A stretch of 56,130 nt of DNA from Halomarina oriensis (GTDB lineage Archaea > Halobacteriota > Halobacteria > Halobacteriales > Haloarculaceae). Positions within the stretch are counted from its first letter, which is position 1. Every line of letters begins with the position of its first letter. The notes under the pieces are model-generated. The model made no database searches. It saw only the letters and a program-made list of their open reading frames with translations, and was not told where the DNA came from. The stretch spans positions 1 to 56,130 of the forward strand of contig NZ_WSZK01000025.1 of the NCBI RefSeq assembly GCF_009791395.1, given 5' to 3'. The translations under genes and the position numbers were made by a program. Of the stretch, positions 36,286 to 44,741 are shown piece by piece.

Positions 36286-37290
36286 TCAGTCCTCGGCGCG
36301 GAGTTCCCGTTCTTCCGTCTCGTCGAGGGCGTCGTACGACCGTGCGGTCGGCTGGCCGCGGGTACGGTCGTCCTGTAGCCGGTCGGCGACCGCCTCCAGA
36401 CGGTGGGTCTGCTCGCGGTTGACCGCGACGATCATGTCCGAGAGGACGGCGAACATCAGTAGTTGTGCGCCCAGCAGGATGGCGACGCCGGCGACGACGG
36501 CGTAGACCTGGTGGGAGATGCCGACGACCCACCACTCGTAGCCGACCCACGCGCCGATGCCGACGCCGACGAGCGCACTGATGACACCGACGCTCCCGAA
36601 GTAGAACAGCGGGTTGTTGAGTTTCGCCAGACTGTACAGCGCGAAGATGATGCGGCCGCCGTCCTTGACCGGGTGGAGGTTCGTGTCGGAGTCGTCCGGA
36701 CGCGGGTGGTAGGAGACGGGGACGACGGCGGTCCGGACGCCGTGTTTGACGCACTCGACGGCGAGTTCGGTCTCGATGGTGAACCCGTCGGATTCGAGTT
36801 CGATGCGGCGAATCGAGTCGAGCGTGAACGCGCGGTAGCCACTGAGGATGTCCCCGAGGTTCCGGCCGTGGATGGTGGCGAACGCGCTGTTGATGACCCG
36901 GTTGCCGAACTGGTTGAGGCGGGGCATCGCGCCGTCGTGCATGTCGGCGAACCGGTCGCCGATGACGTGGTCGGCCCGGCCCTCGAACAGCGGTTCGAGC
37001 ATCTTCGGGGCGTCCGCCGGGTCGTAGGTCATGTCGCCGTCGAGCATCAGCACGTACGGCACGTCGACGTAGTCGAACGCCTCGCGGACGGCCTGACCTT
37101 TCCCCTCGCCGCTCTGTTCGATGACCCGTGCACCACGCTCGCGGGCGAGGTCCCTGGTGCCGTCGGTCGACCCACCGTCGACGACGAGGACGTTCTCGAA
37201 CCCCTGCTCGACGAACCCGTCGATGACGGGGCCGATGGTCTCGGCCTCGTCGAGCGTCGGGACGAGTACGCACACGTCGGTGTTGGTCAT
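36286..37290 (-). CDS. aglJ: AglJ-type dolichol-phosphate glycosyltransferase
   Basis: A 334-residue family 2 glycosyltransferase. The GT-A domain (residues 1-230) has VCVLVPTLDEAETIGPVI, VVDGGSTDGT and the metal motif LMLDGDMTYD. Two C-terminal hydrophobic segments anchor it to the membrane. In Haloferax AglJ adds the first sugar of the N-linked glycan to dolichol phosphate. Linkage here to aglG and aglB supports this role over a generic dolichyl-phosphate mannosyltransferase. The start MTNTDVCVLVP is preceded by a T-rich TATA-like element near 37318-37325. Confidence 0.82.
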   Translation of the reverse strand: MTNTDVCVLVPTLDEAETIGPVIDGFVEQGFENVLVVDGGSTDGTRDLARERGARVIEQSGEGKGQAVREAFDYVDVPYVLMLDGDMTYDPADAPKMLEPLFEGRADHVIGDRFADMHDGAMPRLNQFGNRVINSAFATIHGRNLGDILSGYRAFTLDSIRRIELESDGFTIETELAVECVKHGVRTAVVPVSYHPRPDDSDTNLHPVKDGGRIIFALYSLAKLNNPLFYFGSVGVISALVGVGIGAWVGYEWWVVGISHQVYAVVAGVAILLGAQLLMFAVLSDMIVAVNREQTHRLEAVADRLQDDRTRGQPTARSYDALDETEERELRAED

Positions 37291-37340
37291 CTCGTTGCGA
37301 GAAATCGTCCGTACGCGCTGAAAAAGCTGCCGGCCGGCGC

Positions 37341-37945
37341 TCACCGACCGACCGCCCGCTCGACGTACGACGCGTGGTCGCCGAACCACGAGTCGACCGT
37401 CTCGGGGTCCCGGTAGGCGACGCGCACGCTCTCGTGACTCGGTCGGAGTTCCCCGTCGACGACGACACAGCGATAGAGGAGCGTCACCGCCCCGTGTGGC
37501 CCGTACGCCGGCGCGTCGATGTACGGTGCGGCGACCAGATCGGTCGGTCGCACGACGAGGCCCGTCTCCTCTTCGACCTCCCGACGGACCGTCTCTTCTC
37601 TTCGGGGGTCTCGCCGGACGCGGCGTGACCGCCCGGCAGCGCCCACGCGCCGCTCTCGGGTCGCTCGATGAGCAGGACTCGCCCGTCGTCGTCGGTGACG
37701 ACGGCCGTCGCGCCGACCTTCGGCGTCACGTGACCGAACTCCTCGGCGGTGAGGCGGTCACGCACCTCGTCGGCAGGGAGGTCCAGACCGCGGGCGTACG
37801 CCTCGCTCACGACGTGGAGGATGCGCTCGTAGCGCTCACGGTCGTAGTGGTCGTGTGGGTCGTCGCCGTAGGTGAGGCCGTTGCGCGCGACGATCTGGAG
37901 TTCGTCGAGGAGGGCGAGAAGCGGACGGGGTGACCGGTCGGCCAT
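37341..37945 (-). pseudogene. NUDIX hydrolase broken by a 5-base duplication
   Basis: N-terminal Nudix_N-type domain (LLALLDELQIVARNGLTYG) followed by a Nudix domain. The Nudix box starts GHAASGETPEE in one frame and continues ETVRREVEEETGLVV in another. Between them GAAGA occurs twice in tandem on the coding strand. Deleting one copy restores the exact GX5EX7REUXEEXGU spacing and a 199-residue protein. Family members cleave nucleoside diphosphates linked to another moiety. As sequenced the enzyme is inactive. The CGC microprotein gene lies five bases upstream. Confidence 0.85.
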
Positions 37946-38335: not shown

Positions 38336-39178
38336 ATGAGCGAGACGGACGTCTTCGAGCGCCTCGGCCTGACCGAGTACGAGCAGACCGCACTCATCGA
38401 GCTGCTGACGCTCGGTCGGACGACCGCTCCGAACCTCGCCGAGGCGACCGGTATCCCGAAGGCACGTGTCTACGGCGTCCTGGACTCGCTGGCCGACCAG
38501 GGCTACGTCAAGATCATCCCCGGCCGACCGAAACACTACCAGCCCCACGACCCCGCAGCCATCCTCGACCGGGCCGAGGAGAACCGCCGGCAGGAACTCG
38601 AATCGTTCGTCCAGGCCGTCGAGACCGAACGCGAGTCGTTTCTCGCCGAGTTCCAGCCACGGTTCGAGGCGGCCGGCGAGGACATCACCGCCACCGAGGA
38701 ACTGTTCCACGTCGTCGACGTGGGCGACCCCTCCGAACGCGAGACGCGCCGCATCTACCGCGAGGCGGGCGACCGGGTCTGTATCCTCTCGAAGGGGTTC
38801 GAGTACTTCCACACCATCGAACCGGCGCTGACCGCCGCGCTCGAACGTGACGTCACGGTGGAGGTGCTCCTCCTCCACCCCGACCGGCTGTCGAGCGACG
38901 AGCGCGAGCGACAGGGGACGGTCGTCGAACGACTCACCGACCACGACGTCGCGGTCCGGTTCTCGACGGAACAGCTCCCGTGGCGGGGGACGTTCGCGGA
39001 CCCGACGTTCTCCTACGAGGGCGGCGAGGCCATCCTGCTCGTTCAGGAGGACGACGTCCCCAACCACCTCCGACAGGCGGCCATCACCGAGAACGGCGCG
39101 TTCGTCGCCGGCCTCGGTCGCTTCTTCGACCTGACGTGGGAGTACGAGAGCGAGGGCGTCGAGACGGTCGAAGAGTGA
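38336..39178 (+). CDS. TrmB-family transcription regulator
   Basis: A 280-residue regulator. The N-terminal winged helix (FERLGLTEYEQTALIELLTL, GIPKARVYGVLDSLADQGYV) is followed by a coiled linker and a C-terminal phospholipase-D-like TrmB sensor domain (RVCILSKGFEYFH onward). TrmB proteins sense sugars and control sugar transport or metabolism. Location among glycosylation genes suggests sugar-related control, but the target is unknown. Operator-like repeats lie both at its own start and at the divergent CGC/Nudix unit. Confidence 0.87.
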   Translation: MSETDVFERLGLTEYEQTALIELLTLGRTTAPNLAEATGIPKARVYGVLDSLADQGYVKIIPGRPKHYQPHDPAAILDRAEENRRQELESFVQAVETERESFLAEFQPRFEAAGEDITATEELFHVVDVGDPSERETRRIYREAGDRVCILSKGFEYFHTIEPALTAALERDVTVEVLLLHPDRLSSDERERQGTVVERLTDHDVAVRFSTEQLPWRGTFADPTFSYEGGEAILLVQEDDVPNHLRQAAITENGAFVAGLGRFFDLTWEYESEGVETVEE

Positions 39179-39729: not shown

Positions 39730-40728
39730 TCAGCGCCACTTGAGCAGGCCGTAGAGATAGCCCAGCCCCACAGCACCGGTCAGCACGAACAGCATCACCA
39801 ACTGGAGCAGTTTGGCCGTCGAGAACTCCTCGACGAGTCCGCGCACGCGCGACGGGACGAACCGGAACAGCAGGTCGGCGAGGAACTCGTCTTCCTCTCC
39901 GGTCGACTCGGGGACGAACACCTCCATCCCGCGTTTCGAGTAGCCCTGCCAGAACGCCCGCTTGACGAGCCACGCGGGGTCGGTCCGGTAGTCGAATATC
40001 TTGTGTGCCACCTCCGCATCGGGGTTGTACTCGACGCCGACGCCGTACCGCTCGCGGAGGCGGGCACAGAGTTCCGTCTCGCCGCCTTGGAGGTGTCTGT
40101 CGCCCTTCCGGCCGCCGACGTTCGTGTCGAATCCGCCCAACTCCTCGAACACGTCCGCGCGAAACGAGATGTTGGAGCCGAACGTGTTGCGGACCTCACC
40201 CGGCGTCTCGGCGAACCCGCGGTGGGTGACGCCGACGAGCCAGTAGAACTCCGCCGGGAGGAACGCGGGTTCACCGGCGACCCACTTCGGGACCATCCTG
40301 CCGCCCGCGGCGAGCACCTCGTTTTCGCCACCGTCGACCGCACTCGACCACGGCCAGAGGCTGCCCTCGTAGACGGCGACGAGTTCGGTGAGCCAGTCCT
40401 CGGCGACGAGTGCGTCGTCGTCGACGAACGCCACGACGTCGCCGGTGGCGAGGGCCGCACCGACGTTCCGGACCGTGAGCAGCCCCGAGTTCGGTTCGTG
40501 GCGGTGAACGACCACCTCGTCGTGGTCGCCGAAGTCGTCGACTGCCCGTTCGTAGACGGCCTCGCTCCCGTCGCTGACGACGACCACTTCCCGGTCCCGG
40601 TAGTCGCTGGCGAGGACGCTCTCGACCGCCTCTCGCAGGTCCGGGTACCGCTTCGTGGCGTGTGTACAGACGACGACCGAGACTCGCATAGAGGCCCCTG
40701 CATCGTCCCGTGGGAAGGTGTTTTCCAT
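39730..40728 (-). CDS. aglG: AglG-type family 2 glycosyltransferase
   Basis: A 332-residue membrane-associated glycosyltransferase. VSVVVCTHATKRYPDL, VVVSDG, VVAFVDDDALVAEDWL (DxD site), EFYWLVGVTHRGFA, SNISFRADVFEELGGFD and AFWQGYSKRGM match AglG, which adds the second sugar (a hexuronic acid) of the Haloferax glycan. A C-terminal hydrophobic segment anchors it. It is divergent from aglB, as expected for this pair. The ATG at 40728 has leaderless spacing to a shared TATA-like box; the ATG at 40689 is the alternative. Confidence 0.82.
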   Translation of the reverse strand: MENTFPRDDAGASMRVSVVVCTHATKRYPDLREAVESVLASDYRDREVVVVSDGSEAVYERAVDDFGDHDEVVVHRHEPNSGLLTVRNVGAALATGDVVAFVDDDALVAEDWLTELVAVYEGSLWPWSSAVDGGENEVLAAGGRMVPKWVAGEPAFLPAEFYWLVGVTHRGFAETPGEVRNTFGSNISFRADVFEELGGFDTNVGGRKGDRHLQGGETELCARLRERYGVGVEYNPDAEVAHKIFDYRTDPAWLVKRAFWQGYSKRGMEVFVPESTGEEDEFLADLLFRFVPSRVRGLVEEFSTAKLLQLVMLFVLTGAVGLGYLYGLLKWR

Positions 40729-40782: not shown

Positions 40783-43770
40783 ATGAGTCAGCCAACGGAG
40801 CGTGAGGACGGGCTGACGTTCGACGCGGACTCCGTCCTCGGCCGTGTCCGGGAGCTGTATCACATCCCTGCGGTCGCCCTGCTTCTCGCGTTCATGCTGT
40901 GGAACCGGGTGAAGACGTGGGAGAACTTCTCGTCGAACGGCGAGTTCCTGTTCCGGGGGAACGACGCCTGGTACCACCTCCGACAGACGAGTTACACGGT
41001 CCAGAACTTCCCGTTCACCATGCCGTTCGACCCGTGGACGAACTTCCCGACCGGCACCGCCTCCGGCCAGTTCGGGACGCTGTTCGACCAACTGGTCGCA
41101 CTCGGTGCGCTCGTCCTCGGCCTGTTCATGCCCCAGGACCAGGCGACGACGATGGCCCTCCTGTTCGCCCCCGCCGTCCTCGGGACGCTCGTCGCCATCC
41201 CGGCGTACTTCATCGCCCGCCGCTTCGGCGGCAAACTCGGTGGGGTCATCGCCGTCCTCGTCCTGGCGCTGACGCCCGGCGCGTTCCTGTTCCGAAGTCT
41301 CGTCGGCTTCTCGGACCACCACATCGCCGAAGTGCTGTTCCAGGTCCTCGCCGTCCTCGGCGTGATGGTCGCGGTCAGCGTCGCCCAGCGTGACCTGCCC
41401 GTCTACGAGCAGTTCCGCGCCCGCGAGTGGGGCACGCTCCGTTCGACGGTCGTCTACTCGGTGCTCGCCGGGGTCGCCCTCGGACTGTACGTCTGGGTGT
41501 GGCCGCCCGCCGTGTTCTTCGTCTCCGTGCTCGGCCTGTTCTTCCTCGTCCACGCCGTCTTCGTCTTCCTCAAGGGCCACAGCCCCGAACACGTCGCTAT
41601 CGCGGGGATCGTCATGTCCCTCGTGGCCGCCCTCCTCTCGGCGGTGAAGGTCAGCGAGTTCGCCTTCTCGGCCTCGGACTTCTCGCTCCTCCAGCCGGTC
41701 GCCTTCCTCGGCCTCGCCGTCGGTCTGGCCGCCATCGTCGGCCTCTCGCGTGCCGTCGAGGGTCGCTCCGACGCCTCGACGGTGTTCCCCGGAGCTATCG
41801 TCGGTGCCATCGCGCTCGTCGCACTCGTCGCGTGGCTCGCGGTCCCCGACACGTTCGGCTACTTCGTCGACCAGTTCCTCCGTGTCTACGGACTGGACGC
41901 GAACGCACAGGTCCGGACGGTCAACGAGGCTCGCCCCATCCCGCTCGAACAGGCCGGCGAGTTCTTCGCCGCCCGCTACGGCTTCACGTTCTTCGTGGCG
42001 GTCGTCGTCGCGGTCGGCGCGCTCGCACTGTACCTCCTCGACGACGACCCGCGTGGCGAGGTGCTGTTGCTGGTCACGTGGTTCGTCCTGATGGTGCTGG
42101 CGACGCTGACCCAGAACCGCTTCGAGTACTACCTCGCGGTTCCCGTCGCAACGCTGACGGCGCTCGGTGTCGGCGTCGTGGCGACCCGACTCCAGAGCAG
42201 TACGGGCACGGGCGACGGCATCAGCGCCGCGCAGGTCATGGTCGTGTTCACCGTCGTCCTCGTCGTCGTCGCCCCGTTCGTCGCCGTCTCGGGGCCGCTG
42301 ACGGAGGGCATCCCGCTCCAGTCCGCACAGTCCGCACAGTCCAACGGGCCCGGCGAGGTCACCCAGTGGGACGGCAGTCTGGAGTGGCTCGCCAACAGCA
42401 CGCCCGACGAGGGGCAGTACGGCACCGAGAACGCCGACAACGCCCCGATGGAGTACTACGGGACGTTCGAGCGGACCGCGGACTACGAGTACGGTCCGGG
42501 GACCTACGGCGTGATGTCGTGGTGGGACTACGGGCACTTCATCACCGTCGAAGGTGACCGCATCCCGAACGCCAACCCGTTCCAGCAGGGCTCGAACGAG
42601 GCGGCGAACTTCCTGCTCGCCCAGAACGAGTCGGCCGCGACCGACGTCCTGACTACCGACGGCGACGGCGACGGCGAGGGTGGCCGGTACGTCATGATAG
42701 ACTGGAAACTCGCGGACCCGCGTTCCCAGAAGTACACCGCGCCGACGGCGTTCGGCGACCACGGTATCAGCGCCTCCGGCCCCGGCGAGAACGCGCTCAT
42801 CGAGACGCTCACCTACCAGCAGTACTTCCAGGGCACACAGCCCCAGCCCCAGGTCTACATCCGTAACCAGGCGCACTACGACTCGATGCGAACGCGTCTC
42901 TACCAGTTCCACGGGAGTGCTGCCTCCCCGCGGACGAACGGGCAGGTCGTCGTCGTCGACTGGCAGCGCGAGGCGTTCACGGTCAACGGGCAGCAGACCC
43001 AGCCGTACCCCCAGAACGCGAGCATCAAGCGCTTCCCCACGATGGCCGACGCACAGGAGTACGTCGAGACCGACACCACCGCACAGATCGGTGGACTCCA
43101 GGGCGTCCCGACCGAGTACGTGCCCGCACTGGAGCAGTACCGCCTCGTCCACGCCAGCGAGGAGGCCAACCAGGTCGGGCCGTGGGTGAAGACGTTCGAG
43201 CGCGTCGACGGTGCGACCATCGAGGGAACCGGCCCCGCGAACGCGACGGTGACCGCCAGCGTCCAGATGCGTATTCCGACGCAGAACGGGACGCAGTTCG
43301 AGCGGTTCACCTACTACCAGCAGGTCCAGACCGGCGAGGACGGGTCGTTCACCATGACGGTGCCGTACTCGACGACCGGCTACGACGAGTTCGGGCCGGA
43401 GAACGGCCACACGAACGTCAGCGTCCGGTCGACCGGCCAGTACCGCCTCAGCGCGGTCACCCAGGGTGAGGACCTCTCCCGGACCATCTACGGTGCCAAC
43501 GCCACCGTGACCGAGGGGCAGGTCCTCGGGGAGGACGACGCGGCGACACAGGTGACGCTCGAAGAGGAGCGGACCGTCCAGGCCGGCGGCAACCAGTCGG
43601 GCAACGGTACGAACGTGACGGCCTCGCCCGACGGTGGTAACGAGACGACCGGCGACTCGGCGTCGAACGACACGAACGCCTCCGGGAACGGCACGAACAC
43701 CTCGGGCAACGGGTCGGCGAACGCCTCGACGCTCGCCGCCCCGGAGACGGTCGTCGCACGGGTCGCCTGA
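40783..43770 (+). CDS. aglB: Oligosaccharyltransferase AglB
   Basis: A 995-residue STT3/AglB enzyme that transfers the dolichol-linked glycan to Asn of N-X-S/T sites on the outer face. The first 520 residues hold about 13 membrane segments, with the metal-site motif GNDAWYH (N60-H65). WWDYGH is at residues 580-585, followed by a large extracellular domain. The last 60 residues are a Gly/Asn/Thr tail with ten N-X-S/T sequons between residues 937 and 980, a possible self-glycosylated extension. The downstream DUF368 gene shares the base of its stop (TGATG). Confidence 0.96.
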   Translation: MSQPTEREDGLTFDADSVLGRVRELYHIPAVALLLAFMLWNRVKTWENFSSNGEFLFRGNDAWYHLRQTSYTVQNFPFTMPFDPWTNFPTGTASGQFGTLFDQLVALGALVLGLFMPQDQATTMALLFAPAVLGTLVAIPAYFIARRFGGKLGGVIAVLVLALTPGAFLFRSLVGFSDHHIAEVLFQVLAVLGVMVAVSVAQRDLPVYEQFRAREWGTLRSTVVYSVLAGVALGLYVWVWPPAVFFVSVLGLFFLVHAVFVFLKGHSPEHVAIAGIVMSLVAALLSAVKVSEFAFSASDFSLLQPVAFLGLAVGLAAIVGLSRAVEGRSDASTVFPGAIVGAIALVALVAWLAVPDTFGYFVDQFLRVYGLDANAQVRTVNEARPIPLEQAGEFFAARYGFTFFVAVVVAVGALALYLLDDDPRGEVLLLVTWFVLMVLATLTQNRFEYYLAVPVATLTALGVGVVATRLQSSTGTGDGISAAQVMVVFTVVLVVVAPFVAVSGPLTEGIPLQSAQSAQSNGPGEVTQWDGSLEWLANSTPDEGQYGTENADNAPMEYYGTFERTADYEYGPGTYGVMSWWDYGHFITVEGDRIPNANPFQQGSNEAANFLLAQNESAATDVLTTDGDGDGEGGRYVMIDWKLADPRSQKYTAPTAFGDHGISASGPGENALIETLTYQQYFQGTQPQPQVYIRNQAHYDSMRTRLYQFHGSAASPRTNGQVVVVDWQREAFTVNGQQTQPYPQNASIKRFPTMADAQEYVETDTTAQIGGLQGVPTEYVPALEQYRLVHASEEANQVGPWVKTFERVDGATIEGTGPANATVTASVQMRIPTQNGTQFERFTYYQQVQTGEDGSFTMTVPYSTTGYDEFGPENGHTNVSVRSTGQYRLSAVTQGEDLSRTIYGANATVTEGQVLGEDDAATQVTLEEERTVQAGGNQSGNGTNVTASPDGGNETTGDSASNDTNASGNGTNTSGNGSANASTLAAPETVVARVA

Positions 43771-44741
43771 TGGTCGTCCGCGAGTACCTCGGCATCTACC
43801 TCCGGGGCATCGCCATGGGCGCTGCCGACGCGGTGCCGGGCGTCTCGGGGGGGACCATCGCCCTCATCACGGGCATCTACGGTCGGTTGGTGACGGCCAT
43901 CGCCGACCTCGACCCGCAGGCGCTCGCGCTCCTGCCCGGCGTGACGACGGCCGACGGTCGCACGCGACTGCGCCGACGGCTCATCGAGATGGACGTACCG
44001 TTCCTGATGGCGCTCGGTCTCGGCATCGTCACGGCGCTCGTGACGGTCGCACGGGCCGTCGAGTGGGCGTACCACGCCTATCCGGCACTGCTGTTCGCGT
44101 TCTTCTTCGGCCTCATCGCCGCGAGCGCCGTCGTGTTGCGCGACCAGATAGACGTAGGTACCTCGTGGCGACTCTTCGCGGGCGTCCTCGGCGTCACGCT
44201 CGGCGTCTTCGTCTCGGCGGTAGTCGGGAACGCGCTCCCGAGTACGCTCCCGGTCCTGTTCGTCGTCGGGGCGATCGCCATCTCGGCGATGATCCTGCCG
44301 GGCGTCTCCGGGTCGCTCATCCTGCTCCTGTTCGGGCAGTACGTCTACCTCACGGGGACGCTGTCGTCGTTCGTCGATTCGCTCATCGGCGTGGCCCGCG
44401 GTGGGAGCGTCGACCCGGTCGTCGAGTACGGCACCGTCGTCGTGACGTTCTGTCTCGGCGCAGTCGTGGGGCTGTTCTCGGTGGCCCACGCCGTCGACTA
44501 CGCGCTCGAACACTACCGCGAGGCGACGCTGACGTTCCTCGTCGCGCTGATGGTCGGGGCGCTCTACTACCCGGCCGCCGAGGTGGCCGACGAAGTCACC
44601 GTCTGGACGCCGACGGCGACGGCCGGCATCCTCGTCGCCGCCGTCGTCGGCGCGGCCGTCGTCCTCGTCGTCGACCACGTCACCGGGGACATCGACCTCG
44701 ACGGCGACGTGGACGAGCGCCCGGCCCCGACCGTGAAGTGA
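43770..44741 (+). CDS. DUF368 (PopT-type) polyprenyl-phosphate translocase
   Basis: A 323-residue polytopic membrane protein. It has the duplicated signature of DUF368: GIAMGAADAVPGVSGGTIALITG at the start and ISAMILPGVSGSLILLLFGQY in the second half. Bacterial DUF368 proteins return undecaprenyl phosphate across the membrane. Here the gene starts within the aglB stop codon, so the natural prediction is recycling of dolichyl phosphate released by AglB (inference). No other gene for that step is obvious in the window. Confidence 0.85.
   Translation: MVVREYLGIYLRGIAMGAADAVPGVSGGTIALITGIYGRLVTAIADLDPQALALLPGVTTADGRTRLRRRLIEMDVPFLMALGLGIVTALVTVARAVEWAYHAYPALLFAFFFGLIAASAVVLRDQIDVGTSWRLFAGVLGVTLGVFVSAVVGNALPSTLPVLFVVGAIAISAMILPGVSGSLILLLFGQYVYLTGTLSSFVDSLIGVARGGSVDPVVEYGTVVVTFCLGAVVGLFSVAHAVDYALEHYREATLTFLVALMVGALYYPAAEVADEVTVWTPTATAGILVAAVVGAAVVLVVDHVTGDIDLDGDVDERPAPTVK

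Follow-up and report, generated by a model that had tools for sequence, protein, structure and literature searches.

Conserved linkage of a DUF368 gene to aglB in Halobacteria suggests a candidate for dolichyl phosphate return in archaeal N-glycosylation

A gene of the DUF368 family was identified directly behind the oligosaccharyltransferase gene aglB in a 56,130-nt stretch of the Halomarina oriensis genome (contig NZ_WSZK01000025.1, positions 1 to 56,130; hereafter the window). The two genes are neighbours in most haloarchaeal genera, and it is probable that this DUF368/PopT-type translocase works in the haloarchaeal N-glycosylation cycle, returning dolichyl phosphate (DolP) after AglB has transferred the glycan. 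The identity of the gene, its overlap with aglB, the deep conservation of the linkage, the family-wide motifs and the replacement of the linked copy by a paralogue are established in this analysis.

The aglB gene (40783..43770, + strand) encodes an STT3-family oligosaccharyltransferase of 995 amino acids, which carries PF02516, PF22627 and PF18079. It scores 811.5 bits against TIGR04154, with a subfamily cut-off of 450, and is identified as an archaeal STT3/AglB. The DUF368 gene (43770..44741, + strand) encodes a putative PopT-like polyprenyl-phosphate translocase of 323 amino acids. Its product matches PF04018 at 212.9 bits (cut-off 26; E 7.1e-63), with positions 1-226 of the 246 in the profile aligned. 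The match confirms the family named in the initial annotation of this DNA and is the only one for PF04018 in the H. oriensis genome. As the same annotation reported, the DUF368 gene starts inside the aglB stop codon. In the sequence TGATG (43768..43772, + strand; direct reading), the TGA of aglB (43768-43770) and the ATG of DUF368 (43770-43772) have one base in common, within the junction ...GGGTCGCCTGATGGTCGTC... (also given as CGCCTGATGGTC). The gene start of 43768 given there has to be corrected, since this position is the first base of the aglB stop codon and the gene proper spans 43770-44741.

A profile search detected PF04018 in 386 of 391 Halobacteria genomes. Gene surroundings were surveyed at 140 DUF368 loci from 119 genomes, which were picked by genus and copy number; the shares given below are not rates. 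Four AT-rich loci (L131, L205, L158 and L209) were scored by tblastn. Another 25 named haloarchaeal loci were added through a similarity scan. In the DUF368 protein tree, a fully supported branch separates all haloarchaeal sequences from the rest. Those outside a derived clade, clade B, comprise 94 loci from 66 genera and are termed grade A, or linked. Directly upstream of 82 of the 94 grade A loci, on the same strand and within 400 bp, lies aglB; it is found at 1.5-2.5 kb upstream, again on the same strand, in six more, and the other six are unlinked. Conserved adjacency across haloarchaea, which had been set beforehand as the check on the initial annotation, was thus found. All 25 named loci, chosen for their similarity to the window, are aglB-linked too. 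The window protein groups in the tree with three congeners and Halomarina, all of them aglB-linked, and its gene, with a gap of -1 nt, belongs to the linked lineage.

The surroundings of the pair are far less stable. The aglB gene occupies position -1 in 84 of the 91 scored A loci (92%), and the second most conserved neighbour, a divergent aglG at position -2, is present in 43 of 87 (49%). No family exceeds 20% at any other neighbour position, making aglB the sole neighbour conserved in a majority of A loci. Across the class, the adjacency is much more frequent than chance would give. Judged from gene order, aglB and DUF368 have remained together through reshuffling of the genes around them; because aglB is kept at 92% while other neighbours are not, this is the principal evidence that the two are functionally tied. 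The linkage is ancient.

The distance between the two genes is less constant than their order. Among the 82 linked A loci, 15-16 overlap, including one (L165) in which inspection shows DUF368 overlapping aglB by 4 nt; the gap is no larger than 20 nt in 43-44 and measures 25-278 nt in 38. Even within the genus of the window, gaps of -1 (window), -1, +1 and +4 nt occur, and Halomarina halobia likewise has +4 nt. The translational coupling proposed in the initial annotation therefore fits the overlap in H. oriensis, but a stop-start overlap is not a conserved feature, with only about half of the linked loci at or below 20 nt. Conserved aglB-DUF368 gene linkage is the better wording.

The current Pfam label of PF04018 is 'VCA0040-like, undecaprenyl phosphate translocase-like'. 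VCA0040 of Vibrio cholerae and SAOUHSC_00846 of Staphylococcus aureus are DUF368/PopT translocases of undecaprenyl phosphate (C55-P), which share the PF04018 domain and a similar length with the window protein. Identity to bacterial relatives is 34-38%. An alignment of 63 Halobacteria, other archaeal and bacterial sequences has 26 invariant columns, all of which are present in the window protein. They include flanking glycines and two PG-x-SG motifs, so that the motif columns are the same in haloarchaeal and bacterial proteins. The first motif, PGVSG in the context VPGVSGGT (residues 23-27; 43839..43853, + strand), has P23, G24, S26 and G27 invariant, and the second, PGVSGS (residues 177-182; 44298..44312, + strand), has P177, G178, S180 and G181 invariant. 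An AlphaFold2 model (predicted local distance difference test, pLDDT, 92.5; predicted template modelling score, pTM, 0.86) is all helical and predicts a polytopic helical membrane fold with one broken helix per motif, the first break being in helix 1. No solved structure matched the protein by sequence, and none by fold at E 0.001 or better. The proposed differences from the bacterial proteins lie in the carrier, which in archaea would be DolP, in the client, which would be N-glycosylation instead of peptidoglycan, and in the linked oligosaccharyltransferase gene.

In bacteria, DUF368 proteins recycle C55-P, and HVO_RS12060, the Haloferax volcanii member, restores a V. cholerae DUF368 mutant at least in part (Sit et al., PMC9876793). 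By analogy with this partial complementation, the window protein may have a PopT-like translocase function. Sit et al. also noted that DUF368 is enriched in Halobacteria and mentioned dolichol phosphate as a possible extension (PMC9876793). Like the window gene, HVO_RS12060 is found near aglB. The H. volcanii aglB is HVO_RS12050, and aglF, aglI and aglG are RS12035, RS12040 and RS12045 (PMC5131992, PMC7749143); comparison of the published tags, which step by fives, places HVO_RS12060 two locus tags beyond aglB. An aglM-type UDP-glucose dehydrogenase gene lies between aglB and DUF368 in five related loci, and the agl cluster has been described as running from aglJ to aglM, HVO_1531 (PMC3871713, PMC5867893). 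From locus-tag order and the gene order of relatives, rather than from its own sequence, we infer the identity of RS12055 as aglM and the membership of HVO_RS12060 in the linked lineage. The gene is located just outside the described agl cluster, with one gene, presumably aglM, between it and aglB, whereas the two genes of the window overlap. No paper remarking on the DUF368-aglB neighbourhood (HVO_1532, archaeal DUF368) was found in the open literature, subscription papers excluded.

In haloarchaea, dolichyl monophosphate is the lipid on which glycans are assembled, and the donor of AglB is DolP, not dolichyl pyrophosphate (DolPP) (PMC8674786, PMC3871713). Because haloarchaeal AglB uses monophosphate carriers, its spent product should already have a single phosphate, as do the substrates of PopT-type proteins. 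Most bacterial pathways need a pyrophosphatase before the carrier can return (PMC12826051). In the cycle that we favour, AglJ and other glycosyltransferases would assemble the glycan on DolP at the cytoplasmic side, the glycan-charged lipid would be flipped outward, and AglB would transfer the glycan to asparagine at the outer face, leaving DolP there. The DUF368 protein would then return the empty DolP to the inner face, where AglJ and its kin would reload it, and co-transcription with aglB would keep recycling capacity in step with transfer. This interpretation, put forward in the initial annotation, is a reasonable hypothesis about function, and the gene order survey lends it support.

We infer that DolP is the substrate, that movement is inward, that N-glycosylation is the main client and that glycosylation in archaea would be affected. 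Several observations weigh against this reading. The window protein scores 187.7 and 86.1 bits on the PopT equivalog models (NCBIfam NF052563 and NF052564; cut-off 400 bits), compared with 478.8 bits for a Vibrio relative. Since its scores fall under the cut-off, it is a PF04018 member outside the curated bacterial PopT equivalog groups. In one alternative, the DUF368 protein recycles DolP for every carrier-dependent pathway (exopolysaccharide as well as O-linked and low-salt glycans), and its linkage to aglB reflects only the biggest customer or shared expression. Outside Halobacteria, 37 of the 242 genomes sampled from the phylum have PF04018, and in none of these 37 does STT3 stand beside DUF368; it is located elsewhere or 13-20 kb off, with unrelated genes between. 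Woesearchaeal and methanobacterial DUF368 loci have no STT3 nearby, and DUF368 genes of bacteria are not STT3-linked. Within Halobacteria, DUF368 occurs without AglB in three genomes (G118, G225 and G282) and AglB without DUF368 in one (G021), and because of these cases neither gene strictly needs the other. An unlinked paralogue is often the sole copy. However, conservation is far higher for aglB than for any other neighbour, and beyond aglG no other carrier-pathway gene is kept nearby. Recycling for all pathways is a serious competitor, though somewhat less likely than not.

A Thermoplasmatales contig (L034:4301-12514) has one same-strand run of genes for STT3, an SdrD-like protein, AMMECR1, an amidohydrolase, DUF368, inositol monophosphatase and PcrB, the last of which belongs to archaeal lipid synthesis. 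With three genes separating STT3 and DUF368, this run was considered too little to count as linkage outside Halobacteria. In G225 (L280, contig C4), the DUF368 gene belongs to the linked lineage, no aglB was found in the genome, and the upstream aglB appears to have been lost.

The unlinked paralogue, clade B, includes 46 loci from 30 genera. It is derived (support 98) and falls inside a larger group (support 99). At none of the 46 loci does aglB occur within 8 kb, and whichever neighbour position is considered, no partner gene recurs in over 18% of loci. Among the 119 surveyed genomes, 76 have only A, 27 only B and 16 both. As paralogue B is never aglB-linked but many genera have no other copy, linkage is not required, which also counts against the favoured reading. 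The linkage put forward initially therefore holds for most haloarchaeal genera without being universal, 27 of the 119 genomes having only the unlinked paralogue. In B-only genomes other genes follow aglB, except in G116. There, a DUF368 fragment with an internal stop and its first half missing lies behind aglB (contig C2, L279:4771-5004), and an intact B copy is present on another contig. The fragment appears to be a linked copy that began to decay once B had replaced it. Because this genome has a decayed linked copy together with an intact paralogue, it suggests that one DUF368 must be kept. Paralogue B often replaces the linked copy. A narrower form of the favoured reading is that the AglB-linked lineage is a dedicated N-glycosylation recycler, which would take DolP as AglB releases it, possibly in contact with AglB and, given the monophosphate donor, with no phosphatase step, the relocated paralogue having repeatedly replaced the linked copy. 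We regard this form as possible but hold it only tentatively.

Joint absence of the two genes adds weak support to the favoured reading. Of the 391 Halobacteria, five have no DUF368, seven have no AglB and four have neither (Fisher p 2e-7, or 4e-4 if a genus trio is counted once). The trio (G186, G205 and G306, all of one genus) may reflect joint loss or a shared assembly gap. One assembly gap can remove adjacent genes, so a missing DUF368 was rejected as proof of co-loss with aglB.

DedA proteins are a plausible main rival or partner for DolP return. DedA/UptA C55-P translocases (PF09335) have the same proposed task in bacteria but belong to an unrelated Pfam family. In the rival explanation, DedA/VTT proteins would return DolP, and DUF368 would be a minor or conditional helper, for example at high pH or sodium. 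PF09335 matches were obtained in 23 of 25 genomes tested, with four matches in H. oriensis, a further point against DUF368 as the recycler, and in bacteria both families act, each of them conditionally (PMC9876793, PMC10127716). The H. oriensis matches, on contigs C41, C7 (two) and C16, are candidates for redundant carrier translocation; none is aglB-linked. DUF368, by contrast, is near-universal in Halobacteria and aglB-linked, and one haloarchaeon that bears it (G217) gave no PF09335 match. Moreover, the Vibrio protein matters most at high sodium (PMC9876793), the condition in which haloarchaea live. A minor or conditional role for DUF368 is unlikely.

It is improbable that the DUF368 protein instead flips charged DolP-glycan outward to feed AglB. 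Such a flippase would give the same aglB adjacency, and for the H. volcanii pentasaccharide pathway the main flippase is not firmly assigned, AglR being implicated for DolP-mannose (PMC3871713). AglR and Agl15, the proposed DolP-sugar flippases of H. volcanii, share with DUF368 a DolP-linked membrane step in the same pathway; they differ from it in the proposed outward movement of charged carriers (PMC3871713) and are not DUF368 proteins. In bacteria, however, the family returns C55-P in its uncharged form, a task in which the H. volcanii homologue can partly stand in for the Vibrio protein (PMC9876793). Passive inheritance of the gene order with no functional tie has very little in its favour, for although related genomes commonly have gene order in common and the gaps vary widely, aglB keeps its place, strand and order in the same loci where other neighbours were reshuffled.

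Other genes around the pair also belong to glycosylation. An aglG-like glucuronosyltransferase gene, divergent from aglB, is located at 39730..40728 (- strand; NF041394, 459 bits, cut-off 440). The aglJ gene, encoding the glycosyltransferase that puts the first sugar on DolP, is located at 36286..37389 (- strand; TIGR04182, 448.6 bits, cut-off 325). Because aglG and aglJ are near the aglB-DUF368 pair, this region is recognizable from its gene content as an N-glycosylation neighbourhood. A TrmB-type regulator gene (38336-39178), located between aglJ and aglG and kept in Halomarina halobia (L010), could encode a regulator of the agl genes. A second, divergent STT3/AglB-like gene (frame of about 785 amino acids) occurs elsewhere in the H. 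oriensis genome (G000:C7:293218-295185). It scores about 105 bits on TIGR04154, below the cut-off, and is seen in many other haloarchaea. It could be relevant to the search for the oligosaccharyltransferase that acts on the low-salt glycan.

Halobacteria are a class without peptidoglycan. The wide presence of DUF368 in this class shows that the role of the family is not tied to the bacterial wall. The family and the pathway are both known, and the link between them appears undescribed in the open literature, where no protein assigned to the return of spent DolP to the cytoplasmic face after archaeal N-glycosylation was found. The conserved aglB linkage names a candidate gene for this missing step. 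In H. volcanii, where gene deletion and mass spectrometry of glycans are routine, the candidate sits just past the accepted end of the agl cluster. If the proposal is true, the haloarchaeal system would be simpler than that of bacteria, because the AglB donor is a monophosphate and no pyrophosphatase would act between transfer and return, and the linked DUF368 lineage would provide an assigned carrier-return step for archaeal N-glycosylation.

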